Source: an uncultured Cryomorphaceae bacterium
GTDB taxonomy: Bacteria; Bacteroidota; Bacteroidia; Flavobacteriales; Schleiferiaceae
DNA: 64,000 nt
Direction of reading: 5' to 3'
NCBI GenBank assembly: GCA_913043005.1
Contig: CAJWKU010000001.1
Span: 1 to 64,000 of the forward strand
Shown here: piece after piece, positions 9,222-64,000 of the stretch
Layout: each line of letters begins with the position of its first letter
Numbering within the stretch: position 1 is the stretch's first letter
The notes under the pieces: generated by a model
The model's input: the letters and a program-made list of their open reading frames with translations, nothing else
The model's database searches: none
Told to the model about the DNA's origin: nothing
Translations under genes and position numbers: made by a program

Positions 9222-10792
9222 TTTAATAGTCCCTTTGTAGATTCGTCATGATCTGGGTTTATCTCATCTCCTTCAATTTCAGGCAAAATTTTTCTCGCCA
9301 TTTCTTTACCTAGCTCCACCCCCCATTGGTCATAGCTGTAGATATTCCAAACGGCTCCTTGGAAGAATATTTTGTGCTCATAAATAGCAATTAATGCACC
9401 CAAAGAAAATGGGTCCATTTTATCAAATAATATTGTTGAAGTAGGTTGATTTCCTTCAAATTTCTCATATGAGTTAGGCGCAATGGTTTTACCTATCGCT
9501 AGAGATTCAGTTTGAGCCAAATAATTACTAAGAAGTTTTGAATGATGCTCGTAAAGTGGATGTTGAGGAATTACGCTAGCGATAAAATCAGAAGGAATGA
9601 GTTCTGTGCCTTGATGAATTAATTGGTAAAATGCGTGCTGTCCATTAGTGCCTGGCTCACCCCAAATTATACCTCCAGTAGAATAATCAACTCTTTCCCC
9701 ATTCTTATCGATTGACTTCCCATTGCTCTCCATGTCCGCTTGCTGAAGATATGCTGGAAATCGATGGAGGTATTGGTCGTAAGGAAGAATAGCATGTGTT
9801 GATGCGTTTAAAAAATTACGATACCAGATTCCTAGAGCAGCCATTATTTTAGGAATATTTTTTCTGAAAGGCTTTACTCTTGTATGATTGTCAATAAAGT
9901 TTGCTCCATTTAAAAATTCTTGAAAATTATCAGAACCAATTGAAATACAAATGGGCATGCCAATTGTACCCCAAAGAGAATACCTTCCTCCGACCCAATC
10001 CCAAAAACCGAAGGTGTTTTCTTTTTTAATACCAAATTCATTGACTTTCTCCGTGTTTGTACTTATTGCAACAAAATGTTTTTCTACAGATGCTGGATCT
10101 TCTAATTTTTGAATTAGCCAATTTTTTGCTACCTCAGCATTCGACATAGTCTCCTGAGTTGTAAAGGTTTTTGACGCAACTATGAAAAGAGATTCATTAG
10201 GATCAATCTGCATGAGACATTCGTGCAGATCAGAGCCATCAATGTTGGAAACAAAATGAAACTTTAAATCTCTATTGGAAAATGGTTTCAGAGATGCCAC
10301 TGCCATTTTAGGTCCTAAGTCAGACCCTCCAATACCAATATTGACAATATTTTTAAATTTTTCTCCAGAATGTCCTCGAATCTCTCCATTACGAATCCCT
10401 TCTGCAAATCCATACATTCTTTTTAGCTCTATTTTAGAGATTTCGCGAACATCTTGATCATCTAGTACAAAAGGCGTTGTACTCGGGTCTCTTAAAACAG
10501 TATGTAAAACTGGGCGGTTTTCGGTAACATTAATTTTAACTCCTTTAAATTGCTCTTCTAATGACTTTTGAACTTTACATTCATCGAATAGATCCTCAAG
10601 CAAACTTAGAGTTGTCTCGTCAATGCGGTGCTTTGAGTAATCAAATAATAATAAATCATCAATTCGCATATGCATGGATTTGAATCTATTTGTTTCATAG
10701 AGCAGCTCCCTTAAATGCAATCCATTATTAGTTTCAGAGTGCTTAAGTAAAGCTTTCCATGATTTTGTAGTTGTTGGATTAATAGAGTGCAT
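9182..10792 (-). CDS. pgi: Glucose-6-phosphate isomerase
   Basis: 536 residues, near the usual 540-550. It interconverts glucose-6-phosphate and fructose-6-phosphate. Both phosphoglucose isomerase signatures are recognisable: the SIS region NIGIGGSDLGPKMAV, the FWDWVGGRYSLWGTIGMPI block and the C-terminal GAVWNIYSYDQWGVELGK. Active-site Glu is in the ADMESNGKS / GGIIWGEPGTNGQHAF region. The start ATG at 10792 is unambiguous. It follows the gamma-carbonic-anhydrase gene by 15 nt, suggesting an operon, and converges on the MarR gene with a 40-nt overlap. Confidence 0.98.
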   Translation of the reverse strand: MHSINPTTTKSWKALLKHSETNNGLHLRELLYETNRFKSMHMRIDDLLLFDYSKHRIDETTLSLLEDLFDECKVQKSLEEQFKGVKINVTENRPVLHTVLRDPSTTPFVLDDQDVREISKIELKRMYGFAEGIRNGEIRGHSGEKFKNIVNIGIGGSDLGPKMAVASLKPFSNRDLKFHFVSNIDGSDLHECLMQIDPNESLFIVASKTFTTQETMSNAEVAKNWLIQKLEDPASVEKHFVAISTNTEKVNEFGIKKENTFGFWDWVGGRYSLWGTIGMPICISIGSDNFQEFLNGANFIDNHTRVKPFRKNIPKIMAALGIWYRNFLNASTHAILPYDQYLHRFPAYLQQADMESNGKSIDKNGERVDYSTGGIIWGEPGTNGQHAFYQLIHQGTELIPSDFIASVIPQHPLYEHHSKLLSNYLAQTESLAIGKTIAPNSYEKFEGNQPTSTILFDKMDPFSLGALIAIYEHKIFFQGAVWNIYSYDQWGVELGKEMARKILPEIEGDEINPDHDESTKGLLNHIRDLSNKADNN

Positions 10793-10807
10793 TAAGCAAT
10801 AAAGTAA

Positions 10808-11353
10808 TTATTTGTATTTAATATTTTCTTTTGCCAACTTATCATGATACCATGAGCTGTATAGAACATAGTTTTCAGCAATTCGTTGAACTTCATTTTT
10901 TGAAAGATCAGAGCTTATTTTTTTTATTTTTTTTGCAGGAATTCCTCCATAAATATAACCACTGGGAATATGCGTTCCAGCAGTCACTACTGCTCCAGCC
11001 GCAACAATACTATTAGCTTCCACGATGCAACCATCCATAATAATGCTCCCCATGCCAACTAGAACATTATCATGAATATCACAACCATGTACAATTGCAT
11101 TATGACCAATACTTACATTATTCCCGATCACGGTCGAGAATCTTTTATAAGTACAATGAACGACGGCATTGTCTTGAACATTCACCCGTTTTCCCATTTT
11201 AATTGAGTTAACATCTCCTCTAATCACCGCATTAAACCAAATTGAACATTCTTTATCCATGGATACTTCACCTACTATGGTTGCTGATGAAGCGAGAAAG
11301 CAGCTTTCAGGAATAATTGGAGTATTTCCATTTAAACTTATAACTGTCGCCAT
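10808..11353 (-). CDS. Gamma-carbonic-anhydrase-like hexapeptide-repeat protein
   Basis: 181 residues folding as a left-handed beta-helix: imperfect hexapeptide repeats run from about residue 15 to 150, with a C-terminal helix. The family (YrdA/PaaY/CaiE type) forms trimers with zinc or iron held by three histidines, seen here in NAVVHC, SIGHNAIVHGC. Some members hydrate CO2, others are thioesterases or have unknown function, so activity cannot be assigned. The usual VIRGDVNSIKMG arginine/aspartate motif is present. It lies between nfu-like and pgi genes in the same direction, 15 nt before pgi. Confidence 0.85.
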   Translation of the reverse strand: MATVISLNGNTPIIPESCFLASSATIVGEVSMDKECSIWFNAVIRGDVNSIKMGKRVNVQDNAVVHCTYKRFSTVIGNNVSIGHNAIVHGCDIHDNVLVGMGSIIMDGCIVEANSIVAAGAVVTAGTHIPSGYIYGGIPAKKIKKISSDLSKNEVQRIAENYVLYSSWYHDKLAKENIKYK

Positions 11354-11404
11354 TTTTATTCTCAGGTGAATTTAAAATCTATTTTGGCTCGCACGTATAA
11401 TTTT

Positions 11405-12007
11405 TTAGACAGGAACAACATCTTCAATTAATGTAGGTAGCATTCGCTGTAGTATGCTTTTTATACCTGATTGCAAGGTCAGAGTGCTGCTTGGGCAGCC
11501 CGAACAAGCTCCTTGAAGTTGAACTTTGACTACTTTATTTTCATAACTGACAAAAGAGATATTTCCACCATCTTGCTGAACGGCAGGCTTAACATACTCT
11601 TCGAGAAGATCTACAATTCGTTCTTCAATTTCACTTAGTTCAGTAAGATTTTCTTCTGCAGTAATTTTATCAGACGATTTTTCAACCTCATGAGGTTGAT
11701 TGGATTCCATTACTGGTTGACCACTTTGTAGAAAATCTAGTACGAGTTGACGAATTTCCTGTGTTACGGTTTCCCATTCTACCACATTATATTTTTGAAC
11801 TGCAACAAAATTACTGGATATAAATACTTCTTTAACAAAAGGAAAATGAAAGAGTTTTATTGCCAAAGGAGAGTTGCTGGCTTCTTCTATATTATGGTAT
11901 TCAACATGCTCTAATTCTATCATACGTTTGTTCGAAACAAATTTCATGACTGCCGGGTTGGGAGTCATTTCAGCATAGACACTTATGGGCACACGTTCAA
12001 TTTCCAT
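11405..12007 (-). CDS. NfuA-type Fe-S cluster scaffold/carrier protein
   Basis: 200 residues from the ATG at 12007 (MEIERVPISVYAEMTPNP). The frame continues 15 residues upstream to another ATG (12052), but homologues start near the chosen site. Residues about 1-90 form the Nfu N-terminal domain (MTPNPAVMKFVSN, FPFVKEVFISSNFVAV). A charged linker follows, then the NifU-like domain with the cluster-binding CSGCPSS motif in LQGACSGCPSSTLTLQSGI. These proteins assemble or deliver 4Fe-4S clusters to targets. It is divergent from lepB, 51 nt upstream of the gamma-CA-like gene. Confidence 0.9.
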   Translation of the reverse strand: MEIERVPISVYAEMTPNPAVMKFVSNKRMIELEHVEYHNIEEASNSPLAIKLFHFPFVKEVFISSNFVAVQKYNVVEWETVTQEIRQLVLDFLQSGQPVMESNQPHEVEKSSDKITAEENLTELSEIEERIVDLLEEYVKPAVQQDGGNISFVSYENKVVKVQLQGACSGCPSSTLTLQSGIKSILQRMLPTLIEDVVPV

Positions 12008-12098
12008 TTTGTAAAGGTATTGAATGCTTTGCGCATTGCATAGCAGATTCATACTATTTTTGTCCTAGCGATCGTTGAATGCACTAAATATCAATTTC

Positions 12099-13715
12099 AT
12101 GCTTGACTTACTGGCTTATTATCTTATCATTAATTTCTGGAGCTCAATTCTTACATGGAAGTTTTTCAAGTCAGCGGGCAGATCTAATTGGGAGGCATGG
12201 TTGCCAGTATACCGCACAGTAGTATTGCTCAAGATAGTCGATCGGCCAAAATGGTGGGCGATACTTTGTTACATACCTGTGGTTGATAATATTATGTCAA
12301 TCATTATTTCTTATGAGATTCTTCACATTTTTGGATTTAGAGATAATAAGTATATATTTCTTACTGTTCCAACATGTGGAGCATACATGGGTTATTTGAG
12401 CTATACCTCAGAATTGACTCTACAGCCAAGAGATAATAAGGTTATTCGGCAAAAAATCCCATCAGTTATAAATCATATATTTTTTGCATTGGCTGCAGCG
12501 GGAGCAGTTCGCATGACAACTTTTGAAGCCTACAATATACCTACAGGATCCATGGAGAAGTCTTTAATGATTGGTGATTATTTATTTGTGAGTAAACTCC
12601 ATTATGGGTTAAGGATACCAAATACACCGTTAAGTATTCCATTAATGCATAATCTTATTCCTTACACATCAATACCGAGCTATTTAGATTGGGTTAATTT
12701 CCCATACTTGAGATTACCGGCTTTTGTATCAGTTGAAAAAGGAGATGCAGTGGTTTTTAATGTTCCAGTTGATCCAGGGCGCCCAGTGGATAAAAAAGAC
12801 AATTATGTAAAACGATGTGTTGCCACACCTGGAGATACAATTTCAATTGTAGATCGACAAGTGATGATTAATAGCAGTTTTCAAGAATTCCCGGAGAGAG
12901 CAAATCCTCAATGGAGTTACTATGTCAGAACGAAAGGGAAAGGCTTTAACCCTCGTCAGTTGAAAAGAGACTTTGATATTAATTATTTAGATAACCGAAT
13001 TGTCTCAAATCAAAATTTGAGTGATGTAATTCAAATTACAAATTCGGAATATATGATTACTATCTCCACTGATGCATTGCCTCGTTTCGAGGCACAAAAC
13101 AATATTGATACTGTTATTTGCATGAATACTCCTGGGGATAATCTATTTGATGAGAAAACTCCAGAGGCAATAAAATGGTACAATGAGAATTATATCAAAC
13201 CAATGCTTACATATCCTAATCCAGATGGTCATTCTGATACTATCGTATTTAAGTGGTCTCGAGATAATTATGGACCTTTTTGGATCCCCGCTTCTGGTCA
13301 AGTAGTTGAATTGAATTATCAAAATGTTTTGAAATATGGAAGAGCTATAAACGTTTATGAAGGGCATGATTTGGAATTCAAAAATGATCAGTATTTTCTT
13401 GATGGTGTTCCAACGACCTCATATACTTTTTCTTTAGACTATTATTGGATGATGGGTGATAATCGCCATAATTCTTGGGATAGTAGATATTGGGGAATGG
13501 TGCCTGAGGATCATATCTTAGGAAAACCTGTTTTTATCTTTATGTCTAAAGATGGGTTTGTCAAAGGTTTTTTAAGTTCTATACGTTCTGAAAGATTATT
13601 TACTGTTATTCATGGTAAAGGAGAGCCAACAAGTTATTTATATCCATTTTTATTTTTCGTTGCTGTTTACTTGGGATGGGAAAAATTTCGAAAGCGTAAA
13701 AAAGCAAATAATTGA
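12099..13715 (+). CDS. lepB: Signal peptidase I, large Bacteroidota form
   Basis: 538 residues from the ATG at 12099; an in-frame TTG at 12075 would add eight residues. The enzyme removes signal peptides at the periplasmic face of the inner membrane. The N-terminal 120 residues hold membrane segments and the WLPVYRTVVLLKIVDRPKWW region typical of this phylum. The catalytic domain has NIPTGSMEKSL (nucleophile Ser), YVKRCVATPGD (general-base Lys) and the C-terminal MMGDNRHNSWDSRYWG box. A large insertion of about 170 residues separates the last two, as usual in Bacteroidota. A last transmembrane helix follows. A -7-like box TATTTTTG lies at 12055-12062. Confidence 0.96.
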   Translation: MLDLLAYYLIINFWSSILTWKFFKSAGRSNWEAWLPVYRTVVLLKIVDRPKWWAILCYIPVVDNIMSIIISYEILHIFGFRDNKYIFLTVPTCGAYMGYLSYTSELTLQPRDNKVIRQKIPSVINHIFFALAAAGAVRMTTFEAYNIPTGSMEKSLMIGDYLFVSKLHYGLRIPNTPLSIPLMHNLIPYTSIPSYLDWVNFPYLRLPAFVSVEKGDAVVFNVPVDPGRPVDKKDNYVKRCVATPGDTISIVDRQVMINSSFQEFPERANPQWSYYVRTKGKGFNPRQLKRDFDINYLDNRIVSNQNLSDVIQITNSEYMITISTDALPRFEAQNNIDTVICMNTPGDNLFDEKTPEAIKWYNENYIKPMLTYPNPDGHSDTIVFKWSRDNYGPFWIPASGQVVELNYQNVLKYGRAINVYEGHDLEFKNDQYFLDGVPTTSYTFSLDYYWMMGDNRHNSWDSRYWGMVPEDHILGKPVFIFMSKDGFVKGFLSSIRSERLFTVIHGKGEPTSYLYPFLFFVAVYLGWEKFRKRKKANN

Positions 13716-43906: not shown

Positions 43907-44881
43907 ATGACAAATGCTCCTATTTTTATTCTTGGAAGCCATAAATCAGGAACCAGCTTATTGCGTTCATTGCTCGATGATCATCCAGATCTTTATGTGA
44001 TTCCATTTGAGACCCATTTTATGGCTTCTCTTGGCCGTTGGATAAAGTATTCTTACCGGAAACAGTCACCCGCAGTCAAGGCTGAATATATTCAGAACCT
44101 TTTGCAGGTTTTAGAAAATTATTCGAAATCAAAAGATAGACAAGCGGATGTTGTATTATCAGATATCGTGGATATCGATAAGGCTAAAGAGTTTTTGAAT
44201 AAGTCAGAGGATATAGATACCCCAGAGCAGGCATTGTCTTTATTCAACGAATTGTTACCCGAGATTATTCCAGAAATGGGGGATCCCAAAGGGAAGAGAA
44301 TGGTGGAGAAGTCTGTTGAGCATGCTGAAATGGCCATGGAGCTATACCGTTGTTTCCCCCATGCGCAATTTATTCACATTGTGAAAAATCCATATGCAAA
44401 TTTCGTAGCCCTGAGAAAATTTAAATCAAAGGACCAGGGATACCCATTGGTCAATAAGGTATTTGGATCATTAGAAACAGGATATTTTTTTCTCGATAAA
44501 AATGAAAAAAGCCTCCCTAACTATAAAGTTTTACTTTATGAGGATCTGGCTCGAGACCCATCAACAGTTTTAAAAGGTGTCGCTGATTTTTTGAATATAA
44601 CATTTGATGACAAACTGCTTCAGCCAAGTTTATTAGGTAGTCCATGGTCGGGTAATAGCGCCTATGGCGAATTCAAAGGAATCAGCTCTGAATTTCTAGA
44701 TAATTGGAAAGATGAGATTCATCCTTTTGAGGCAAACCTGATAACTCAAAACTTGTCCCACGTTCTTGAAAAGTATGGTTATGAAAGGCAAAGAATTATT
44801 AAAGGATCGTGGAAGCGTGCAAAAGGGGAATCTTTTAAACGCTATTTATACAATCGCTTTTACCCCTATTATCTGCGATAG
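43907..44881 (+). CDS. PAPS-dependent sulfotransferase
   Basis: 324 residues, cytoplasmic by sequence. The PAPS 5'-phosphosulfate loop is PIFILGSHKSGTSLLRSLLD (about 5-24) and the 3'-phosphate motif lies in FIHIVKNPYANFVALRKF (about 156-173), both characteristic of the Sulfotransfer_3-type family. It would transfer sulfate from PAPS to a hydroxyl or amine of a lipid, glycan or metabolite; acceptor unknown. The stop is immediately followed (no gap) by the stop of a convergent small gene. Start ATG at 43907 is the only reasonable one. Confidence 0.85.
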   Translation: MTNAPIFILGSHKSGTSLLRSLLDDHPDLYVIPFETHFMASLGRWIKYSYRKQSPAVKAEYIQNLLQVLENYSKSKDRQADVVLSDIVDIDKAKEFLNKSEDIDTPEQALSLFNELLPEIIPEMGDPKGKRMVEKSVEHAEMAMELYRCFPHAQFIHIVKNPYANFVALRKFKSKDQGYPLVNKVFGSLETGYFFLDKNEKSLPNYKVLLYEDLARDPSTVLKGVADFLNITFDDKLLQPSLLGSPWSGNSAYGEFKGISSEFLDNWKDEIHPFEANLITQNLSHVLEKYGYERQRIIKGSWKRAKGESFKRYLYNRFYPYYLR

Positions 44882-47017: not shown

Positions 47018-48370
47018 TTATTTTAACTCTTTGTTTTTGAGTTTATTATAAATCAGTTGCGCCTTATGTAATATTTCTACTGAGTAGTCTTCTTTTATTT
47101 CTTTTTGATTAAAATAAGGTTTGAAATCATCTTTTCTGGAGCTTTTGAATTTCACCAAAACTTTATCAAGGATAATATTGGGGTCCAAACAATATGTTTC
47201 ATAACAAATAAAATAAGTATTATGATCAGCTATTAGGCTAGCATAATCATAATAATTTATCCAAGATAGAAGCCAATAGTCTAGTTCATTTTTGTTTCCT
47301 TCTGGAATATGATCGTGGAACTTAAATGGCTTCTGATTTAATCCAAACTCATGGTGTCCGAGCCAATTCATATAGTCTTCAATAAATGGGTCATTTCCTT
47401 GCTGGGCGCAAAATTTTTTGTGCATCTGCATCAGAGAATAAGCATGCGAGAGTGGGTCGCGGAAAAGTACTAGAAAGACAAACTCTTTGTTCAATTGGCG
47501 AAGAGAATCATACCTCAACAACATGTTGTTGTTTTTTGAGAGATAAAATTTTTCTGGCTCCGGGCAAATTAGTCCCTGGTAATCGATGTAGAGCTGATAG
47601 TCTTGATCAGATAAAGAGTGCTTTATCAAGTTTTTGCTGCCTATGAATGAGTCTTGATAAATAGATTTAAAGAAGTATTCTTCCAGTGCCTCATTCGATC
47701 TCATATCTATTAAAACCCCGTCACCATGACTTCTTTCTGCCTTTTTAATGCTTTTGGGTCTGTAGAGTTTCCTCCATGCACGCGGACTCAAAAGAAAGGG
47801 CATGTTTGAATAAGAAAGAGATGTGAAAGATCCACTACCATGTAGAGAATTCATCAAATTGGTAGTACCTGAACGTGCCAGGCCACTCACAATTAAAAAC
47901 TTTTCTTTTTTCACGTTTAACGAGTATTTTTTTATCTCTCGTGATAAAAGCTTAAGTCCAATATTCGAATTATCTAAAACAAGATGGTGGAATAGCTGGC
48001 TGACCTCGTTATAAGAGCTTTTAGAGTTAGTCGGAATAAAAAACGGGATACTTGCTCCAATTGAAAAGCCAATTAATCCAGGTTGGCTATTCCAAATTAA
48101 GCTATTAAAAAAATAGCCAAGAGCATATACTGAAAAGAAAGCAATAGTTAGGGTTAAAACAATTATCGTAAGTACTTTAAAAAGGATAATCACCAATAGT
48201 TTAGTCCCTTTTTCAATTCTAGATAATTTTTTGTCTTCATTCTCATCTTTTAAAATATCATCCAAGAGCCCAACACTACTGGTGGCGAGTTTATAAAAAT
48301 GATATCTGTTATATCGCAGAAAATAAAAGGCAAAAAACCCTATTACTCCTAGAATAAGTGCATCAAGCAT
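47018..48370 (-). CDS. Membrane-anchored PAPS-dependent sulfotransferase
   Basis: 450 residues. The N-terminal 150 residues contain hydrophobic segments (about 2-18, 58-83 and 88-108), then a cytoplasmic sulfotransferase domain with the PAPS loop FLIVSGLARSGTTNLMNSL (about 159-177) and the 3'-phosphate region FVFLVLFRDPLSHAYSLMQM (about 295-314). Membrane fusion suggests a lipid or lipid-linked acceptor (inference). The gene starts 3 nt after the 45-residue peptide gene and is the third of the tight ASST - small peptide - sulfotransferase operon. Confidence 0.84.
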   Translation of the reverse strand: MLDALILGVIGFFAFYFLRYNRYHFYKLATSSVGLLDDILKDENEDKKLSRIEKGTKLLVIILFKVLTIIVLTLTIAFFSVYALGYFFNSLIWNSQPGLIGFSIGASIPFFIPTNSKSSYNEVSQLFHHLVLDNSNIGLKLLSREIKKYSLNVKKEKFLIVSGLARSGTTNLMNSLHGSGSFTSLSYSNMPFLLSPRAWRKLYRPKSIKKAERSHGDGVLIDMRSNEALEEYFFKSIYQDSFIGSKNLIKHSLSDQDYQLYIDYQGLICPEPEKFYLSKNNNMLLRYDSLRQLNKEFVFLVLFRDPLSHAYSLMQMHKKFCAQQGNDPFIEDYMNWLGHHEFGLNQKPFKFHDHIPEGNKNELDYWLLSWINYYDYASLIADHNTYFICYETYCLDPNIILDKVLVKFKSSRKDDFKPYFNQKEIKEDYSVEILHKAQLIYNKLKNKELK

Positions 48371-48512: not shown

Positions 48513-49793
48513 TTATTCTTTTATTATTCTCGTCCAGTTAGGTAGGTGGTGATATCCCTTGTGTTGGGACAATAAAACATTCTTGTACAGAACGCTATCC
48601 TTATCAAGAATCCAAAGCAAACCGCTGTTTTGCTCCTCGACAAAGTATGTTCCATTATAAATTTTTTCAGAAAGTCCTTCAGTAAAGGTGTAGATTTTAT
48701 TGGCACTCATCTGCTTTTCTAGTTTTAAACTAAAAGAATTGTTATTCAAATGGTATAAGAGAATTTGGGAATAAAGAGGTCCTATTTCAACTTTAGACTC
48801 AGTAATTGTCCAGTCAGTAGTAGTTTTCTGCCATTTGGTATGAGTGTTATTATTAAAAATGCTGATGGTGCTATCGTTGATAATATCAACATCATGTTGT
48901 GATTGAAAAGGACCTTCAATTACGTTTATAATTTTGTTAGAAGTAGGACGATAAAGAAAAATGGTAGAGATGTTTTTGCAACTAATAAATAAATCACCTT
49001 TTTTTAGATATTTCCCTGATTCTAAAACAGGCTGTACATCATTTATATGCATCGGGTCTGAAGCTTCAGAAGATTTTAAAAGAATTGATTCTAGCTCATT
49101 ATCTAATAGTATTTGGCTCAGGGATCTATGGAATAAAATCAGACCATTTTCGTGGTCTAGACATGTTATTGCATTATCAATAAAAGGAAAAGAGCGCTCA
49201 TCAATTTCCAATTGGGCATCATATTTTGGTTCTTTAGCTTTAAGAGTAGGGTAAGAGCAAAGCCAAATATTATTATTATGGTCTTTATTTAATGAATGAT
49301 GAGAAATCACTTGGTCTTGACTCCATTTAACATTGCTAGATTCATCGATACAAAAAATTCCAGGGACTCCAATCGATGCATAGACTATATGGTCGTTTTC
49401 CATTAATAAAGGATGCAATACTCGGCGATGTGAGTTATCCAGTCCTTTAACATGCCATGATTGTAACAGTGAATCTGTTCTGAGATTCTTTAACTCAATA
49501 TTTCGATCCCTATTTGAGCTCGAATATGTAAATAGCACCAAGATATCCTCCTCTAATTTATTTATGGGAGTAAAACTCACAGGAGTAGGGATGAAGGTTT
49601 CAGGCAAATGCTGAACTTGGTCTACTGCTTTCGAAAATTTATCTGGAAATGAACTCCATTTTATTAATACCTGATCAATTCCCTTTCCAAGGATTTCACT
49701 TTTGCTATTGGCTTCCTTAACAAGCCATGCAAAAGCTGATAAGAATGTTAATACTAATACAGTATTGGAAAAGAGAAGAAAGATTTTTTTCAC
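48513..49793 (-). CDS. Arylsulfotransferase-like (ASST) beta-propeller protein, membrane-anchored
   Basis: 426 residues from the GTG at 49793; a TTG at 49796 is the alternative, and no ATG is available nearby. An N-terminal helix (about 4-25) anchors or exports it, and the rest reads as a periplasmic propeller of the arylsulfotransferase family. Three His-containing blade motifs stand out: VISHHSLNKDHNNNIWL, DPMHINDVQPV and QHDVDIINDSTISIFNN, corresponding in layout to the active-site histidines of ASST enzymes (family knowledge). ASST moves sulfate between phenols without PAPS; this member's substrate is unknown and it could also be a non-catalytic relative. First gene of the operon. Confidence 0.72.
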   Translation of the reverse strand: MKKIFLLFSNTVLVLTFLSAFAWLVKEANSKSEILGKGIDQVLIKWSSFPDKFSKAVDQVQHLPETFIPTPVSFTPINKLEEDILVLFTYSSSNRDRNIELKNLRTDSLLQSWHVKGLDNSHRRVLHPLLMENDHIVYASIGVPGIFCIDESSNVKWSQDQVISHHSLNKDHNNNIWLCSYPTLKAKEPKYDAQLEIDERSFPFIDNAITCLDHENGLILFHRSLSQILLDNELESILLKSSEASDPMHINDVQPVLESGKYLKKGDLFISCKNISTIFLYRPTSNKIINVIEGPFQSQHDVDIINDSTISIFNNNTHTKWQKTTTDWTITESKVEIGPLYSQILLYHLNNNSFSLKLEKQMSANKIYTFTEGLSEKIYNGTYFVEEQNSGLLWILDKDSVLYKNVLLSQHKGYHHLPNWTRIIKE

Positions 49794-49879
49794 CAAAATA
49801 ATTTCTATCCAAAGTTAGGAACCAATTCTACAAAAAAAGGATAATATCATCACTTATATATCCCCATTTTCACTATTGA

Positions 49880-57554: not shown

Positions 57555-59147
57555 ATGTCATCCGTTTTTGATATCCCCTCTGAGTTCAAGATAGATCCTT
57601 ACAAGTGCGATAAATATTTGATCAATGGAGATTTGAGAAAGTGGGAAGGAAAAACATCTGATGTTTTTTCCTCAATATCCACAAAAAATAAGGAAGGGAA
57701 GACAAATCCAACATTTTTAGGTTCTGTTCCTGATATTGATTCTAGTGTTGCTTTGGAAGCTGCAGAAGCGGCGCATAAAGCATATGACAGAGGGAAGGGC
57801 GTTTGGCCAACCATGAAGGTTTCACAAAGGATAAAGTGCATGGAAATTTTTGTTGAAAAAATGAAAATTTATCGAGACGAAGTGGCACTACTCTTAATGT
57901 GGGAAATTTGTAAGAATAAATCTGATTCTTACAAAGAGTTTGACCGGACAGTTGATTACATAAATGATACTATAGAGGCATATAAAAAATTAGATCGCAA
58001 AGGTGCAAATTTTCAACATGAATCCGGAGTACTGGCTCATATTAGAAGGGGCCCACTTGGGGTCGTATTATGTTTAGGGCCATATAATTATCCCCTGAAT
58101 GAAACATTTTCATTATTGATTCCTGCTATAATAATGGGTAATACTACTGTATTTAAGCCAGCAAAGCAGGGTATTTTATTGATAACCCCTTTATTAGATG
58201 CTTTTAAAGAGAGCTTTCCACCTGGTGTAGTAAATATACTTTTTGGTAGGGGTAGGGATATTGCAGCGCCAATAATGAAAACCGGTATTATCGATGTTCT
58301 CGCATTGATTGGTCATAGTTCATCTGCTGTTGCACTCCAGGATTTACACCCAAACAAAAATAGATTGAGATTAATCCTGGGTCTTGAAGCAAAAAATCCA
58401 GGAATAATCCTTTCGGATGCAGACCTGGACCATACCATTCAAGAGTGTATTTCAGGAACACTATCATACAATGGTCAACGCTGCACTGCCCTTAAGATCT
58501 TATATGTGCATGAATCGATTGTTGAAGAATTTAATTTACGTTTTTCAAAAGCCGTCGATAATCTGAAGTTTGGAATGCCATGGGAAAACACTTTTTTAAC
58601 ACCATTGCCAGAACCTGGTAAACCCGATTATATTCAAGGATTAATTGAAGATGCAGAAAATCAGGGTGCTCAAATAATTAACAGAAAGGGAGGAGAGCGA
58701 TTGAAAAATTATTCTTTTCCGGCAGTGCTATATCCTGTAAATGATAAAATGCGACTTTTCCATGAGGAGCAGTTTGGCCCAATTATACCTATCGTATCTT
58801 ATAGCGATATCAACGAGCCTCTAAATGATATGTCAAAATCTAATTATGGTCAACAGGTTAGTTTATTTGGAAGTAATGTTGATGAGATTGGGCCCTTAAT
58901 CGACTCTCTTGCAAATCTAGTTTGTAGGGTAAATCTTAATTCTGCCTGCCAACGTGGACCAGATGTGTATCCATTCACTGGTCGAAAAAATTCTGCAGTT
59001 GGAACCTTGAGTGTCTTTGACGCTTTGCGATCATTTTCGATTCGAACATTTCTTGCAGCGAAATCAAATAATATTAATAAAGAAATAATTGAAAATTTAC
59101 TTGACTCAAAGTCTTCAAATTTTGTCACTACTGAATATTTGCTTTAG
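57555..59147 (+). CDS. NADP-dependent (non-phosphorylating) glyceraldehyde-3-phosphate dehydrogenase-like aldehyde dehydrogenase
   Basis: 530 residues. The aldehyde dehydrogenase fold is clear: [20 protein letters not shown], the catalytic Glu in [19 protein letters not shown], the nucleophile Cys in [13 protein letters not shown] and [11 protein letters not shown] near the end. The C-terminal [20 protein letters not shown] block and [12 protein letters not shown] are characteristic of the GapN group, which makes 3-phosphoglycerate and NADPH from glyceraldehyde-3-P. Somewhat longer than classic GapN (about 475-500), with an extra N-terminal segment. It is probably co-transcribed with the TonB receptor, though no functional link is obvious. 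Confidence 0.82.
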
Positions 59148-59171: not shown

Positions 59172-59813
59172 TCAGAAAAATATGCTGATCAAAAGAGCAG
59201 CTGAAATGGGAAGAAAAAGATTATCTAACCCATAAGGAGTTAAAACCTCAATTATTGCCAGTATTAAAGCCAAAATAATAGCATAAGCAAAGGGTAGACC
59301 CAGTGCAAGGCCAATAAAAAATGAAAAGACAGTAAAAGCTAAAAATCCAGCTACAGTTTTCCCCTTGCTATATGGAAATGATATACTCGTCAATTTTGTC
59401 CCAAAATAATTTGCGGCAACATCCGAAATTCCCGTAATCAACAATCCATATATAAATGGAACTTTGCTCAAAGTAATGGCGCTAACTGATTCTGGATGAA
59501 ACCAAATGGACACCATTAAAATGCCAAGTGGAAAAGCAATTTCTCCTATTGTTGATCGTGAAACGGTATGAATACTCTTTAAAAATTTTATTTGTTTTGA
59601 TAACGTCAGTAAAATAGTAAAAGCTATTGAGATTAGATAAACCTCTTTTATTGTTAAGAAAAACACAAAGCTGGATGCAACTATGGCACTTAAAAAATGA
59701 GCTGATTTTCGGGTAAGCTCTCCAGATAAATTAGTCTTTCGCTTGATTAATTCTCCGAAGAAAAGAATAGCAGAAAACAAAAGAAAAAATAATAATAGAT
59801 TATTACTTATCAT
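59172..59813 (-). CDS. Dolichol/phytol kinase-like membrane protein (CTP-dependent kinase family)
   Basis: 213 residues with about seven hydrophobic segments. The hallmark is GISDVAANYFGTKL followed by SKGKTVAGFLAF, matching the nucleotide-binding GD-x-x-A-x-x-x-G / K-T-x-x-G pattern of the SEC59/DGK1/VTE5 and CDP-diglyceride synthase families. The N-terminal RKSAHFLSA matches the polyprenol kinase subgroup, so CTP-dependent phosphorylation of an isoprenoid or diacylglycerol alcohol is likely. Last gene of a tight leftward operon with UbiA, RPH-like and GNAT-like genes. Substrate unknown. Confidence 0.74.
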   Translation of the reverse strand: MISNNLLLFFLLFSAILFFGELIKRKTNLSGELTRKSAHFLSAIVASSFVFFLTIKEVYLISIAFTILLTLSKQIKFLKSIHTVSRSTIGEIAFPLGILMVSIWFHPESVSAITLSKVPFIYGLLITGISDVAANYFGTKLTSISFPYSKGKTVAGFLAFTVFSFFIGLALGLPFAYAIILALILAIIEVLTPYGLDNLFLPISAALLISIFF

Positions 59814-59815
59814 AT

Positions 59816-60754
59816 TTAAAAAATATAAGATTCGTACTCACGCATGATTGAAATATCGGGATCAGGCATTCTATTTACTCGATTATCGACCTGAATCATG
59901 GCATAGATACATTTTTTCGCCTTCCGTTTTTTAGCAATTGAATGTAGCTCTCCGGCTAGAGCATTTCCAAGCCCTTGCTCTTGATATTTACGAATAATTC
60001 CCAAGGTTTTGAAAATTATGGTTTTATCCGGCATTTCAAATAAGTATGCAAAACCTACATTTTCCTCTTTAATTTTTATCCAGTACAATAATGGAGAGCC
60101 ATTTTCTCTTTTCGTCATGGAATTAATCCAAGATGAGAATTGATTTTGATTCATGGACTCATATCCCCAATTGGTGCAGAATATTTCATGAACTAGATGA
60201 TGAAGATTTAAAATGCTATTAACTGAATCGAGTTTAATTGTCTCTAGGCTGAATCCTTTGTCAATCCAGCGAGTTAAAAAAGGATGAGATACTTTGATAA
60301 CTGCATCAAATGAAGTTCGATATGCACTTCTATATTTTATGATTTTTTCTGGCCCCATAGATCTCATGAATTCAACAGTTTTTATATTGGAATTCCATTC
60401 GCCTTCAAAAATTGGACTTTGATCAGATTTAGAAATAAACTTATACGGTAAAAAGCTAGATCCATTTATGGGTCCATAAAATTGACCACTGTATTTTTTT
60501 CTAATATTCTTCCATTGTTCTAATTGGATACTTTTGTCATGGGATTTGAGTTCAAAAAAACCAAAAGCGTGACCATTCACAAATGGATATATACCAATAC
60601 AAAATGCTTCCTCATCAATCCATTGTGCACCGACTTTTTTTGAAAAAAACTCCCAACATAGAGTAGGGTTGATGGAATCATCATACCCCAGACTCCTACT
60701 GCGATAAATCAGAAAATCTGCTAAATGATTAGTATTGGGTTTGTTAATTTTCAT
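59816..60754 (-). CDS. GNAT-like acyltransferase, two-part protein
   Basis: 312 residues. The C-terminal 150 residues carry a GNAT-type fold: EENVGFAYLFEMPD, then TLGIIRKYQEQGLGNALAG (the acyl-CoA-binding Q/R-x-x-G-x-G/A pattern) and CIYAMIQVDNRVNRM. The N-terminal half (WEFFSKKVGAQWI, FGFFELKS, LPYKFI) resembles a degenerate second GNAT copy, as in duplicated GNAT proteins. It overlaps the phosphotransferase gene by 11 nt and is followed by the kinase-like gene 2 nt later. The acyl acceptor is unknown. Confidence 0.7.
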   Translation of the reverse strand: MKINKPNTNHLADFLIYRSRSLGYDDSINPTLCWEFFSKKVGAQWIDEEAFCIGIYPFVNGHAFGFFELKSHDKSIQLEQWKNIRKKYSGQFYGPINGSSFLPYKFISKSDQSPIFEGEWNSNIKTVEFMRSMGPEKIIKYRSAYRTSFDAVIKVSHPFLTRWIDKGFSLETIKLDSVNSILNLHHLVHEIFCTNWGYESMNQNQFSSWINSMTKRENGSPLLYWIKIKEENVGFAYLFEMPDKTIIFKTLGIIRKYQEQGLGNALAGELHSIAKKRKAKKCIYAMIQVDNRVNRMPDPDISIMREYESYIF

Positions 60755-63056
60755 CCTTGTTTTTTATTTGCAATACTCCATTCGAAGCATCCAATATTGC
60801 ATTAGATCCATTCGTTAATTTCTCCGTTATTTCTTTAACACCAATAATGCACGGAATGCCGAGTTCTCTGGTAACTATTGAAGCATGAGATAACAATCCA
60901 CCTTGCTCAACTACTAGTCCTTTTGACTTGCTTATTAGCAAACTCCACCCTGGATCTGTATGCTTAGCGACAAGAATATCAAAATCGGGCCATGGGCCAG
61001 GTTTATATTCTTTCATTACTAAAATTTTACCTTCTACTAAACCTGGAAAAACAATTTGACCTTTACAGTCACCTTCTATTAAAGGATTCGTTTTGTACTC
61101 TGGTGGCGACCCGTTTGGAGTTGAAGCAAAACTTCGTGGGTATTTATTTCGAGAATGCTTTTTAAAATCATTTTTTCGCGATAAAACTATACTCTTCCAA
61201 CTTTCTTCCTTATCCAAAAACCACTCTTGGATGGTTAGAAAAAATATATCATCTCGTTTATCTAAATATTTTGACTTTACCGCAATCGTTCCTGCATTCA
61301 ATAATATTGTTCTTAGCCAACCGAATGCTGTAGACCGCAATAAGCGAAAAGACTCTCGTTGGCGAATATAATGGTGTAACTGTCTTATTCCCCATGGGTA
61401 TTTTTTGTTTGTCTCAGCTCCTTTGGATTTTAAGGGGCTAGATATGATTTCTCTCATTGCATTGGTAAGACTCCCAAAATCATCCATTGGGCTTGGCGAT
61501 TCTAGTTTTAATTCATTTGGAAATCGACCACCATAAGCTGAGAAATAGGATTTCCATTTTTTATTCAAATTTGGATGTTTTTTTAAGTCTGTAAGAAAGA
61601 GAGATTCTTTGTCACTATTTAATGCTCGGCTCAATTCTGGTTCAGCAAAGATTGATTTAGATAACTCTTTAAAGTCCCTCAATTGCATTACGCTTGGGGT
61701 TTCTATAGAAATAAAAGCACGAAGTTTAGAGGGGGAATATTTTTTCTCAGCCCAACCCAAAAAAGTCATCAAGATTGTGTCATTTTCAACAGTTATGTAC
61801 CAATTCCTCATCCATTTTTTTTCCAAAGAATCCCACAACCTTTTAAGTTGCTCATTCGAGTAACTGGATAAATCTAATTCTTTTAACTCTTTGAAATCTT
61901 TTAAAATATTTCGGCTAAATCTGCGCGTAGTAATTGGGAAAAGAATAGTTTTCCAGAGTATTAAAGGGTAATAAAGAATTCTTAAATCTAGACTAGGTTT
62001 GATGCTTTCGGGTAAAAATATGTCTTGACGAATTTCAGATGTAATCATTTGCTCCAAGTTCTCCTTGTTACGTCGATACCCTGGTAAGAAAAACATCATG
62101 GCATACCAATGGTTCATGACATAGTATATCCGTCCATAAAACCCCTTCACTAAATGGTCAAAAACTTTGGAATGAGCATCTATTTTGGCTTTTGAAACTC
62201 CGCTTTTATTCAAGAGATCCCGATATACATAATTATATAGTCTCGCGGCAACACTCACAGTCATTGGACTAACAATACCGGTATAAGATTCTGCTATATT
62301 CGAGTTATCAAATAGCCATACGTTTGGTAACCAATCGACTGTAACTGGACGAATTTGAAGAATATAAAGTTTGCCGTCGACAAAAGTCCATTCTAAGTCC
62401 ATTGACTGGTTTTTAAATTCTTTTTGGATGCGATAATAAAGTTTAGAAAGTTGCTTTTTAAGTCGATTCGACCAGCATGATTGTGTATATGTTTTTTTTA
62501 TTATTGTCTGAGATTCGTTGTCAAATACTTGTCCTGTTATTTGCTCCAAAGATTCGTGCATCCATTCTTTTCCACTTGGATGAAATCCTTTTTGCTCCGA
62601 AGGAAGCCCCTGAACAATATGATTACAAAGTCCCGGAGCATAATTGACCATCCATCGGTCTGAGTGAGTAAACATGACTCCAGAAACAGCTTTTTTAGAA
62701 TAAAGAAAAGGCTGAATAACAATACCGTTTTGAGGATCACCAATTTCTTGGATCGGCATACTTTGTGCAACCTTGACGCAGGCGTCAGATAATTCTTCTT
62801 TGGAAACCCCCAATAATGTCTTGAATCGCCCCGCTGCTGAAGTTTCTTTTGTGTCCTCTGAAACAGATGAGCTGCGAACAGCAAATACGCTTGGGCTGTC
62901 TAACTTTGAAATAAATAAATCTAACTCCAACAAGTTAACACCGTTTTTAATTAGATCTTGATCTGCTTTTATCGATAAACTGGGTAATACGCGAAATTTT
63001 TTTTCTTCAAGTTCATTTAACCATTTGGCTTTATTCCCAAAAATATTTAGAGACAT
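60744..63056 (-). CDS. PEP-synthase/rifampin-phosphotransferase-like dikinase
   Basis: 770 residues from the ATG at 63056; a TTG at 63062 adds two residues. Order: an ATP-grasp PEP/pyruvate-binding domain (about 1-230; SVFAVRSSSVSEDTKETSAA, WTFVDGKLYILQIRPVTVDW), a long middle region (about 235-650) unlike pyruvate enzymes, then the swivelling His domain (about 655-770) with catalytic His724 in GGLLSHASIVTRELGIPCI. That layout (no PEP TIM barrel) matches rifampin phosphotransferase, which uses ATP to phosphorylate a hydroxyl, giving AMP and phosphate. Substrate here is unknown; a prenyl or lipid alcohol is a guess from neighbours. It overlaps UbiA by 10 nt and the GNAT gene by 11 nt. Confidence 0.78.
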   Translation of the reverse strand: MSLNIFGNKAKWLNELEEKKFRVLPSLSIKADQDLIKNGVNLLELDLFISKLDSPSVFAVRSSSVSEDTKETSAAGRFKTLLGVSKEELSDACVKVAQSMPIQEIGDPQNGIVIQPFLYSKKAVSGVMFTHSDRWMVNYAPGLCNHIVQGLPSEQKGFHPSGKEWMHESLEQITGQVFDNESQTIIKKTYTQSCWSNRLKKQLSKLYYRIQKEFKNQSMDLEWTFVDGKLYILQIRPVTVDWLPNVWLFDNSNIAESYTGIVSPMTVSVAARLYNYVYRDLLNKSGVSKAKIDAHSKVFDHLVKGFYGRIYYVMNHWYAMMFFLPGYRRNKENLEQMITSEIRQDIFLPESIKPSLDLRILYYPLILWKTILFPITTRRFSRNILKDFKELKELDLSSYSNEQLKRLWDSLEKKWMRNWYITVENDTILMTFLGWAEKKYSPSKLRAFISIETPSVMQLRDFKELSKSIFAEPELSRALNSDKESLFLTDLKKHPNLNKKWKSYFSAYGGRFPNELKLESPSPMDDFGSLTNAMREIISSPLKSKGAETNKKYPWGIRQLHHYIRQRESFRLLRSTAFGWLRTILLNAGTIAVKSKYLDKRDDIFFLTIQEWFLDKEESWKSIVLSRKNDFKKHSRNKYPRSFASTPNGSPPEYKTNPLIEGDCKGQIVFPGLVEGKILVMKEYKPGPWPDFDILVAKHTDPGWSLLISKSKGLVVEQGGLLSHASIVTRELGIPCIIGVKEITEKLTNGSNAILDASNGVLQIKNKDEN

Positions 63057-63925
63057 AACCAAACAATTAGATTTAAAGAAATATAACTCATTACAGCACC
63101 CAATTGAATAAGATTTCTTCCCATTTTATTAGGTTTAGCCGAAAACCTAATGCAACAAACGAAAAGAGGAATTAAAGAAATAGCTAGCCAAAGTGCATAA
63201 ATATTACCTATTAAAAAGAAACAATAAAATGAAAGACACCCTAATAAAAAGGTTACAAAAGCACTTCCATGAATTCCTAATCTTGACGAATAGCTATCTA
63301 AGTAAGCTGTCTCTTCATTTGGGGGAAGGCATTTTCTAGCTGCCTCTATTAAAGCACTAAGTATAAAAACTCCAAATGCATGCCACCAGATAGATGAATT
63401 CCAAATTAAAGTTTTTGTAATCGCTGCGTATGCAATTAACTGAAGCAAAAGCATCTGAAAAAGCATTATTACGTTGTAAAGCCAAAAACTGGGTTTTAAC
63501 CGTTTAATAAATCCAACTTCATAGCGCGCCAGTATAGAGTAAACAAGTAAACCGGCCGAAAGCATTCCGGATAGAGGATCAAGTAAAAGGTGGATTGTTA
63601 CAAAAACTCCCCCATTCAGATAACCCAAATTCAAAATTTCTTTGGAAGATATCAAACCGCGCTGCAGAGGTCTATTTGGGTGATATATATCATCTATTTC
63701 TTTGTCTCGTAATTCGTCAATTACTCGGGTATGTAATAAAAAAGAAATTCCAGCAATGGCTAATAGTCCATACTTCCACCAGGCTTCATCAAATCCATTG
63801 AATGAAAGAACAGCATGAGTTGAAAGTATGATACTGAATGTTGTCGGTATCAAAAAAACTAATGGAAACCGCTCGGATTGATAAATTTTTAGTCTCCTAA
63901 TTAAAGATTGACCGCTTTTTTCCAT
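63047..63925 (-). CDS. UbiA-family prenyltransferase
   Basis: 292 residues, about eight or nine membrane helices. The first Asp-rich motif reads HTRVIDELRDKEIDDIYHPN followed by RPLQRG, and the second is TAYLDSYSSRLG, both at the positions expected in UbiA enzymes. They move a prenyl group from a prenyl diphosphate onto an acceptor (aromatic, sugar or glycerol derivative). It opens the four-gene operon as far as the window shows, with a 12-nt gap to the end of an upstream frame. Acceptor unknown; the next genes suggest a lipid pathway. Confidence 0.82.
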   Translation of the reverse strand: MEKSGQSLIRRLKIYQSERFPLVFLIPTTFSIILSTHAVLSFNGFDEAWWKYGLLAIAGISFLLHTRVIDELRDKEIDDIYHPNRPLQRGLISSKEILNLGYLNGGVFVTIHLLLDPLSGMLSAGLLVYSILARYEVGFIKRLKPSFWLYNVIMLFQMLLLQLIAYAAITKTLIWNSSIWWHAFGVFILSALIEAARKCLPPNEETAYLDSYSSRLGIHGSAFVTFLLGCLSFYCFFLIGNIYALWLAISLIPLFVCCIRFSAKPNKMGRNLIQLGAVMSYISLNLIVWLCL

Positions 63926-63937
63926 AAAAAGTAATTG

Positions 63938-64000
63938 TTATAAAAAGGGACCCGATCTTGAATATTCATATCGATTAAAGTCCATCTCTTTTGAAAAAAT
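63938..64000 (-). CDS. C-terminal end of an open frame running off the right edge
   Basis: The last 20 codons before a TAA at 63940-63938 are open to the window edge (IFSKEMDFNRYEYSRSGPFL) and end 12 nt upstream of the UbiA start. The spacing suits an upstream operon gene, but 20 residues are too few to identify or even to prove coding. Confidence 0.35.
   Translation of the reverse strand: MFSKEMDFNRYEYSRSGPFL

Follow-up and report, generated by a model that had tools for sequence, protein, structure and literature searches.

An operon of UbiA, dikinase, DUF3419, GNAT and kinase-like genes, conserved in order across bacterial phyla and possibly directing the synthesis of a membrane amino-lipid

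In plants, phytol is salvaged through VTE5 and VTE6, which feed a UbiA-type transferase, and archaeal ether lipids are made by GGGP synthase (GGGPS), the UbiA-type DGGGP synthase (DGGGPS), CarS and a CDP-alcohol transferase. UbiA enzymes carry two Asp-rich motifs for diphosphate and Mg. In betaine lipid synthesis, BtaA transfers a 3-amino-3-carboxypropyl group, and the BtaB methyltransferase gene would sit beside that of BtaA; nicotianamine synthase is an aminocarboxypropyl transferase too. The locus described here lies at the end of a window of 64,000 nucleotides (the whole stretch of DNA analysed, from contig CAJWKU010000001.1, hereafter C1) of an uncultured Cryomorphaceae bacterium, and joins genes for a UbiA-superfamily prenyltransferase, a dikinase with the architecture of rifampin phosphotransferase (RPH), a tandem GNAT-like protein and a probable membrane lipid kinase to one for a DUF3419/BtaA-like enzyme. 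An earlier note on the window had described the first four as one unit that might build or salvage a prenyl donor.

Conservation of the operon in related and distant genomes

The operon is real and widely shared, more than chance would give, because other genomes keep the order of the gene set. One hundred relatives of the window genome were searched with the dikinase and the DUF3419 gene separately, giving a dikinase match of some kind in 20 genomes and a DUF3419 match in 16. When only dikinase matches below 1e-30 were counted, and the six genomes with short or weak matches only (G028, G033, G051, G061, G076, and G077) were scored as lacking the gene, both genes were found in 13 genomes, DUF3419 alone in three (G004, G021, and G023), the dikinase alone in one (G012), and neither in 83 (Fisher p ~1e-12, uncorrected for kinship). 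The G012 dikinase is a 27%-identical paralogue in a different gene setting.

Within the window genus, 9 of 22 genomes carry both genes. The order DUF3419-UbiA-dikinase-GNAT-kinase was found on one contig in the window genome and in G002, G003, G011, G013, and G019, and the loci of G001, G015, and G020 are interrupted by contig ends. Within the family, four further genera (G056, G042, G043, and G039) share the order HMGR-UbiA-dikinase-DUF3419-kinase-GNAT, HMGR standing for an HMG-CoA reductase homologue; an AMP ligase gene comes next in three of them, and none is met in G042 before the contig ends. The G043 locus also carries an SRPBCC gene. In G002 (locus L032), the DUF3419 gene extends across two overlapping frames (10891-11995), owing to a frameshift or a sequence error.

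For distant genomes, contigs of named genomes were scanned with the dikinase alignment, and the best 80 loci of at least 583 pattern matches, chosen by dikinase similarity, were inspected with neighbour profiles built from family members (training loci L040 and L039), a gene being present when any mechanically called open reading frame (ORF) of the locus matched. The count was made on the 53 loci with at least 3 kb upstream and at least 6 kb downstream of the dikinase, the 27 loci with short flanks being excluded. The usual order was HMGR-UbiA-dikinase-DUF3419-kinase-GNAT-AMP ligase. UbiA was present in 52 of the 53 loci, DUF3419 in 51, the kinase in 47, GNAT and the AMP ligase in 49 each, and HMGR in 48, a figure that includes the divergent copies of L144 and L162 (46 on the operon strand). 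The five core genes occurred together in 47 loci and all seven in 44; 45 loci kept the core order on one strand and 42 kept the whole series of seven, in agreement with the conserved synteny for which the earlier note had asked. Leaving out L105 and L141, which share sequence with the training loci, the core was present in 45/51 and in order in 43/51. The exceptions to the core order were L112, L122, L144, L148, L154, L155, L156, and L162. Over all 80 loci, contig-end losses included, the numbers were 71 for UbiA, 73 for DUF3419, 67 for the kinase, 67 for GNAT, 62 for HMGR, and 63 for the ligase.

Grouped from their record titles, the carriers span about nine phyla. They include Dyadobacter (among them Dyadobacter soli), Sphingobacterium (Sphingobacterium alkalisoli), Rhabdobacter, Portibacter, and Saprospiraceae within the Bacteroidota, and, elsewhere, Cyanobacteria, Melainabacteria, Gammaproteobacteria (Methylomonas, with Methylomonas sp. 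SURF-1), Geobacter, Planctomycetota, Verrucomicrobia, Gemmatimonadaceae, Chitinispirillum, and Endomicrobia, many of them metagenome-assembled genomes (MAGs). The set is also found on a plasmid of the alphaproteobacterium Roseinatronobacter sp. S2, where a partial HMGR precedes genes whose annotations read UbiA, PEP/pyruvate-binding protein, DUF3419, two hypothetical proteins, and AMP-binding protein.

A search that started independently from a DUF3419 profile gave matches in 46 of 395 genomes of the phylum, from which 30 loci were kept, one of them the window's own. The scores fell into two groups, 11 strong matches below 1e-49 (the window's own apart) and a remainder between 2.9e-29 and 1.1e-6. 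Eight of the 11 strong matches had the dikinase in their 1.5-kb flank, and no dikinase, UbiA, or kinase gene was found beside the weaker matches (0/18 loci); 16 further matching genomes yielded no locus.

In the window itself, the four leftward genes were confirmed at 59172-63925, with one overlap of 11 nt, another of 10 nt (16 nt if the dikinase is read from its TTG instead of its ATG) and a single gap of 2 nt, bearing out their description as one unit (Table 1). The dikinase may start at the TTG at 63062 or the ATG at 63056. The set of four was nevertheless incomplete: the DUF3419 gene overlaps UbiA by 25 nt across the window end, which cuts the operon so that only the last 100 nt of that gene lie inside, and HMGR and AMP ligase genes are usual elsewhere. 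These last two could not be seen from the window because the window genus was without them in the genomes tested.

Table 1. Operon genes and neighbouring features (window positions unless contig C1 is named)
Feature	Position	Strand	Remarks
DUF3419/BtaA-like enzyme	contig C1 63901-64845 (window 63901..64000)	-	314 aa; operon gene 1; PF11899 E 2.4e-12
UbiA-superfamily prenyltransferase	63047..63925	-	292 aa; PF01040 E 8.6e-17, 61.7 bits against a cut-off of 34.2
RPH-architecture dikinase	60744..63062	-	772 aa; PPDK_N E 2.4e-21, PEP-utilizers mobile domain E 2.3e-22
Tandem GNAT N-acyltransferase-like protein	59816..60754	-	312 aa; Acetyltransf_1 E 2.5e-6, residues 203-292
SEC59/VTE5/CdsA-like integral membrane protein, probable CTP-dependent lipid kinase	59172..59813	-	213 aa; conserved residues and CdsA-like profile link
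Aldehyde dehydrogenase	57555-59147		opposite direction; ends 24 nt from the kinase side of the operon
Fatty-acid desaturase	contig C1 65140-65898	-	beyond the window; 294 nt upstream of the operon
Sulfotransferase	43907-44881		Pfam
Sulfotransferase match below cut-off	47018-48370		Pfam
Arylsulfotransferase-like protein	48513-49796		Pfam

The window covers the beginning of a 177-kb contig in a genome of 1.67 Mb that is 92.9% complete. A desaturase-like gene, named by eye, was also seen downstream of the dikinase in L112, and the three sulfotransferase-related genes of the window lie within 6 kb. The Rfam scan reported nothing within the operon and one tRNA in the window at the gathering score, and a scan for promoter-like sites (25 against 30.6 expected) and terminator-like sites (1 against 4.5 expected) was uninformative.

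Enzyme families of the operon

All 30 dikinases examined contain PPDK_N and PEP-utilizers and no other Pfam family (E up to 0.001); the C-terminal barrel that would follow the mobile domain (PF02896, which we take to be the phosphoenolpyruvate (PEP)-binding family) was absent from 30/30 in Pfam. The window dikinase has the RPH layout of ATP-grasp, middle domain and C-terminal swivelling His (mobile domain at residues 695-762 of 772, His726), and the middle domain has invariant motifs of its own. The nearest solved sequences, 5hv2/5fbs (408 bits), presumably Listeria rifampin phosphotransferase, carry the molecule name 'Phosphoenolpyruvate synthase', and are followed by 8a8e (312 bits). NCBIfam likewise names its nearest models 'phosphoenolpyruvate synthase', and its RPH cut-off of 999 bits was not reached by the window dikinase (119) or the Methylomonas member (337).

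In a tree of 40 proteins, including five operon dikinases of the window genus and 25 of other genera, a 98/99 branch parts the operon dikinases from E. coli PpsA, two annotated RPHs that form a separate clade, two PigC-type proteins (one of them, found beside PigD, serving as a reference), and a Haladaptatus protein. PpsA, the only one of its kind in the tree, falls with RPH and PigC as a very long row of unsure place and differing domain order, and L036 is also a very long row of unsure place. Two non-operon Streptomyces proteins fall on the operon side, the non-operon L036 and L156 inside the operon group, and the window-genus dikinases form a clade of their own with a branch length of 4.18.

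Two further settings of dikinase relatives were noted. On a Streptomyces clavuligerus plasmid (L196, 4024-8421) and an S. durmitorensis plasmid (L200, 880-5634), proteins 31-33% identical to the Methylomonas member adjoin an AfsA (A-factor) gene and a gene resembling isoprenylcysteine methyltransferase, in what may be another cluster for a small molecule. In G012, a genome of the window genus in which the search of relatives found no DUF3419 gene, the dikinase paralogue (L036, contig C68, 1448-3922) shares its contig with a desaturase (10171-11025) and a 769-aa fusion of HMGR with an APH-type kinase domain (11018-13327).

The first Asp-rich motif of UbiA is invariant in 30/30 members (D70, E71, D74, and D78), and where the second would stand, the invariant residues are E194, R197, K198, and E205. 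Its best solved relative is the DGGGP synthase 6m31 (E 8.2e-5).

The small membrane protein was the most difficult to place. The window protein gave no NCBIfam match and, in Pfam, only a meaningless Dymeclin hit below cut-off (E 0.17). The phytol/dolichol-kinase-like assignment of the earlier note is favoured by residues that are invariant in 21/21 members (R35-K36, H39, D131, G138, K152, G156, E189, D197-N198, and P202) and by a profile link to the CdsA-like neighbours (hhalign probability 60.9%, E 8e-5, against 0.05-0.13% for four control profiles), whereas PF01148 was matched by only 6/31 members at E up to 0.01, and weakly (best 5.7e-5). Outside the Bacteroidota, the protein is mostly about 430-490 aa long (L169, 11827-13176; L159, 11782-13131; 373 aa in L149 and 404 aa in L153), with a C-terminal membrane domain matching no clear family; its assignment to UbiA or CdsA was unsupported except in L165, a true kinase-UbiA fusion. 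DUF92 gave no more than weak matches to two of the long kinases from other phyla (E 0.0097 and 0.038). As a separate second kinase, VTE6/DUF92 was rejected: it was found in only 3/24 genomes (G005, G487, and G490), including two of the 20 operon carriers among them, and is absent from the window genome. With VTE6/DUF92 missing in most of the carriers tested, the dikinase would have to act as the second kinase, a role for which it is a candidate.

PF11899, the DUF3419/BtaA family, was matched by 31/31 aligned operon members. The AlphaFold model of the DUF3419 enzyme (predicted local distance difference test, pLDDT, 91.2) has a fold like that of S-adenosylmethionine (SAM)-dependent enzymes, and Foldseek placed nicotianamine synthase at ranks 2, 6, 7, and 9 (E 7e-4 to 2e-3, template-modelling score ~0.23) amid many methyltransferases. 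The GNAT protein (pLDDT 90.5) is predicted from its model to consist of two GNAT-like halves: the whole model aligns to the tandem GNAT MAB_4324 (Z 17.6, 269 residues aligned, 3.8 A) and to mycothiol synthase (Z 17.6, 268 residues aligned, 4.1 A).

The two genes that extend the operon outside the window genus encode an AMP ligase, placed by NCBIfam in the OleC/PRK09274 group below cut-offs (OleC 213 of 900 bits), and a class-I-like HMGR homologue in which Glu, Lys, Asp, and His, the catalytic residues of HMGR, are invariant in 22/22 aligned members. This homologue is an extra enzyme. In G056, G042, G043, and G039, a second HMGR lies on another contig, and nine window-genus genomes have one HMGR each that resembles those second copies (295-307 bits to the Pfam model); no HMGR was seen in the operon loci of the window genus, and the operon type was absent from these nine genomes. 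The ligase was absent, at E 1e-20, from five window-genus genomes. This joint absence is as expected if both enzymes act together upstream. Second HMGRs also occur in Microscilla (G496) and Portibacter (G495). When seven non-operon HMGRs (L187-L193) were scored against the operon model, three of them (from G000, G043, and Portibacter) reached 25.6-29.5 bits and four missed E 1e-5.

The operon HMGR is present in 12 of the 13 genomes with named loci. The exception is Phormidium (G487), which lacks it and whose ligase homologue is encoded away from the locus. In 10 of these 12, for which completeness was not given, DXR of the methylerythritol phosphate (MEP) pathway is present with no strong match to mevalonate decarboxylase (weak matches in two, 6.7e-5 and 1.4e-4), the Geobacter MAG has neither marker, and Portibacter has the mevalonate marker. 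Since the operon HMGR is found mostly in MEP genomes, it is unlikely to serve mevalonate synthesis in most of the carriers tested, and we infer that it reduces another acyl-CoA. A Glu near the catalytic Lys, present in 60/60 operon HMGRs where two solved class I HMGRs have Ser, was rejected as the mark of a new substrate, as it also occurs in the non-operon HMGRs of L170 and L036; the divergent non-operon HMGRs of L144 and L162 were set aside in this comparison, which did not include L187-L193. The divergent HMGR ORFs of L144 and L162, of 768 and 769 aa, stand beside the operon.

A proposed lipid pathway and its alternatives

Fusions and added genes are informative about which steps may be coupled. 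DUF3419 and GNAT are fused in L144 (681 aa) and L162 (637 aa), two loci that showed no separate kinase or GNAT; the kinase is fused to UbiA in L165, with no separate UbiA between HMGR and dikinase; and L069 has the order dikinase-DUF3419-kinase-UbiA. These arrangements point to two coupled pairs, the kinase with UbiA and DUF3419 with GNAT. A CDP-alcohol phosphatidyltransferase gene and a CdsA-like gene are embedded in 10 loci (by sequence clustering, with Pfam tested in L101 only), MMPL genes adjoin L155 and L168, and FtsX and ABC ATPase-like genes adjoin L169, all pointing to a lipid product that may receive a phospho-headgroup and then be moved.

We propose the following sequence of steps. 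Only in the full version would the OleC-like AMP ligase activate a carboxylic acid to an acyl group and the HMGR homologue reduce the thioester to an alcohol. The SEC59-like membrane kinase (using CTP) and then the RPH-type dikinase (converting ATP to AMP and Pi via its swivelling His) would phosphorylate a hydroxyl, producing a diphosphate-type donor or an activated acceptor. UbiA would then move an isoprenoid or alkyl group to a membrane acceptor, the DUF3419 enzyme would pass the 3-amino-3-carboxypropyl group of SAM to a hydroxyl, as BtaA does, and the tandem GNAT would acylate the new amino group. In some lineages, the CdsA-like enzyme and the CDP-alcohol phosphatidyltransferase would perhaps add a phospho-headgroup, and the window genus would run a diverged five-gene version, without HMGR or ligase, on an alcohol drawn from elsewhere. 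The prenyl donor of the earlier note survives in part, as the kinase-UbiA fusion fits activation followed by transfer but the distribution of VTE6 does not fit a VTE5/VTE6-type route; its suggestion that the GNAT-like protein acylates the product has become more specific, the protein being a tandem GNAT that two loci carry as a natural fusion with the DUF3419 enzyme.

That the operon serves a lipid pathway of some kind seems to us quite probable, but for the step sequence as a whole, leading to a membrane-associated amino-lipid, we would put the probability at about 0.4, and several observations weigh against it. The substrates, the order of steps and the nature of the lipid are proposed from genes: families, conserved order, fusions, architecture, and the extra HMGR of MEP genomes. 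The second metal-binding motif of UbiA is, by alignment, altered, and the identity of the probable CTP-dependent lipid kinase, with its weak profile similarity, is the weakest call. No member of this dikinase superfamily is known to make a diphosphate, and relatives of PigC condense with the same architecture. In a second structural comparison, the matches of the DUF3419 model were SAM-dependent enzymes of a generic kind (best Z 12.2, 187 residues). The very long branch of the window-genus dikinases suggests that their substrate may have changed. Finally, some loci fit poorly: HMGR is missing from the locus despite a ligase in L122, L148, and L149, and despite a kinase in L149, L167, and the window genus; in the loci of L122 and L148, UbiA and the dikinase stand without a kinase gene, so that phosphorylation would break down unless a kinase is encoded elsewhere; L112 keeps only HMGR, UbiA, and dikinase of the seven genes, and L156 only the dikinase.

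An unlikely but coherent alternative is a ceramide-like route, in which SAM and an alcohol, isoprenoid or alkyl, would give rise to a sphingolipid mimic: DUF3419 would add the aminocarboxypropyl group to a lipid alcohol made by UbiA, GNAT would acylate the amine, the AMP ligase would activate the carboxylate, HMGR would convert it to a primary alcohol, the SEC59-like kinase would phosphorylate this alcohol, and CdsA and the CDP-alcohol transferase would add a headgroup. Every enzyme would receive its substrate group from the preceding one, and the route agrees with the linkage of the HMGR, kinase, CdsA-like, and CDP-alcohol transferase genes, with the DUF3419-GNAT fusions, and with the joint lack of HMGR and kinase in L122 and L148 (in L148, only ~3 kb upstream of the dikinase is covered). 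However, the kinase is kept without the operon HMGR in the window genus, L149, and L167, its fusion to UbiA points to an earlier role, and the dikinase is left with no clear one.

It is rather unlikely that the product is simply betaine-lipid-like, with a BtaA relative making an aminocarboxypropyl ether lipid that is N-acylated rather than N-methylated and the other genes supplying the lipid part only. The family match of every DUF3419 member agrees with this explanation, but the score gap separates the operon enzymes from the 18 weaker loci, which are without dikinase, UbiA, and kinase, and UbiA and the dikinase are as constant in the operon as DUF3419 itself. Moreover, a methyltransferase-like gene, named by eye with no family search, stands beside DUF3419 in 3/6 of the weaker loci viewed (L075-L077), whereas no methyltransferase cluster recurring in at least five operon loci was found among the extra genes (L100 has one such gene).

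Quite improbable is a dikinase that acts as a PigC/RedH-like condensing ligase, with UbiA, kinase, and DUF3419 making a secondary metabolite rather than a membrane lipid. The domain architecture is shared, and the Methylomonas member reaches 320 bits with the PigC and 356 bits with the RedH model of NCBIfam, but the two PigC-type proteins lie across the 98/99 branch, and no polyketide synthase, non-ribosomal peptide synthetase or pyrrole gene was recognised by eye among the neighbours viewed, no dedicated search having been made. An ordinary PEP synthase in a chance neighbourhood of one genome, which only the names of the nearest NCBIfam models and solved relatives would suggest, is scarcely credible given the missing PEP-binding domain, the C-terminal mobile domain, the tree placement, and the synteny in dozens of genomes, in line with the earlier note's preference for an RPH-like enzyme.

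The step sequence leading to an N-acylated amino-lipid is the reading we prefer. A still wider claim is put forward only tentatively and is, in our view, doubtful: that about nine phyla share a class of bacterial membrane lipid not known before, namely a SAM-derived amino-lipid that is N-acylated, has an isoprenoid or alkyl base, and might mimic ceramide, for which the HMGR homologue would be an acyl-CoA reductase unrelated to mevalonate and the dikinase a lipid-specific enzyme filed as PEP synthase. If true, a widespread lipid pathway would have been overlooked because the gene names are misleading or empty (PEP synthase, HMG-CoA reductase, DUF3419, hypothetical protein), and a function would be gained for DUF3419 proteins outside betaine lipids, for HMGR genes of MEP-pathway bacteria, and for one branch of the RPH-type dikinases. 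Since the operon occurs in named strains, the product can be tested for directly.

Comparison with known systems

The operon is apparently undescribed, and databases name its genes one by one. No paper describing the gene set as a whole was found in an open-access library of PubMed Central, subscription papers and preprints being outside its scope, which agrees with the earlier note's statement that it knew of no described bacterial pathway with this combination. Judged by titles and abstracts, the DUF3419 literature found covers algae, plants, fungi, and a picoalga, and the VTE5/VTE6 literature found concerns, by title, plants only.

OleC beta-lactone synthetase is the nearest named family of the ligase, yet the match is far below cut-off, and class I HMG-CoA reductase is that of the operon HMGR, yet this homologue sits in MEP-pathway genomes. 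Archaeal ether-lipid synthesis resembles the operon in its UbiA, closest to DGGGP synthase among solved structures, and in the CdsA-like and CDP-alcohol transferase genes of ten loci. However, GGGP synthase (PF01884) was found in only 11/24 genomes and in none of five window-genus genomes, and was thus rejected as an archaeal-type partner.

As in the VTE5/VTE6 system, a membrane kinase stands beside a UbiA prenyltransferase, with one natural fusion of the two, but most of the carriers tested have no VTE6/DUF92, and the operon adds an ATP-dependent His-swivel dikinase and the DUF3419 and GNAT steps. RPH shares with the dikinase the ATP-grasp, middle, and C-terminal His mobile domains and provides its nearest solved sequences, whereas the operon dikinases are separate in the tree, have their own middle-domain motifs, and occur in a context that looks biosynthetic rather than one of resistance. 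With BtaA/BtaB, finally, the operon shares the protein family of its SAM-dependent enzyme and a likely lipid context; it differs in that its loci are without a recurrent methyltransferase partner, and its DUF3419 enzymes form a distinct high-scoring subgroup tied to UbiA, dikinase, kinase, and tandem GNAT.

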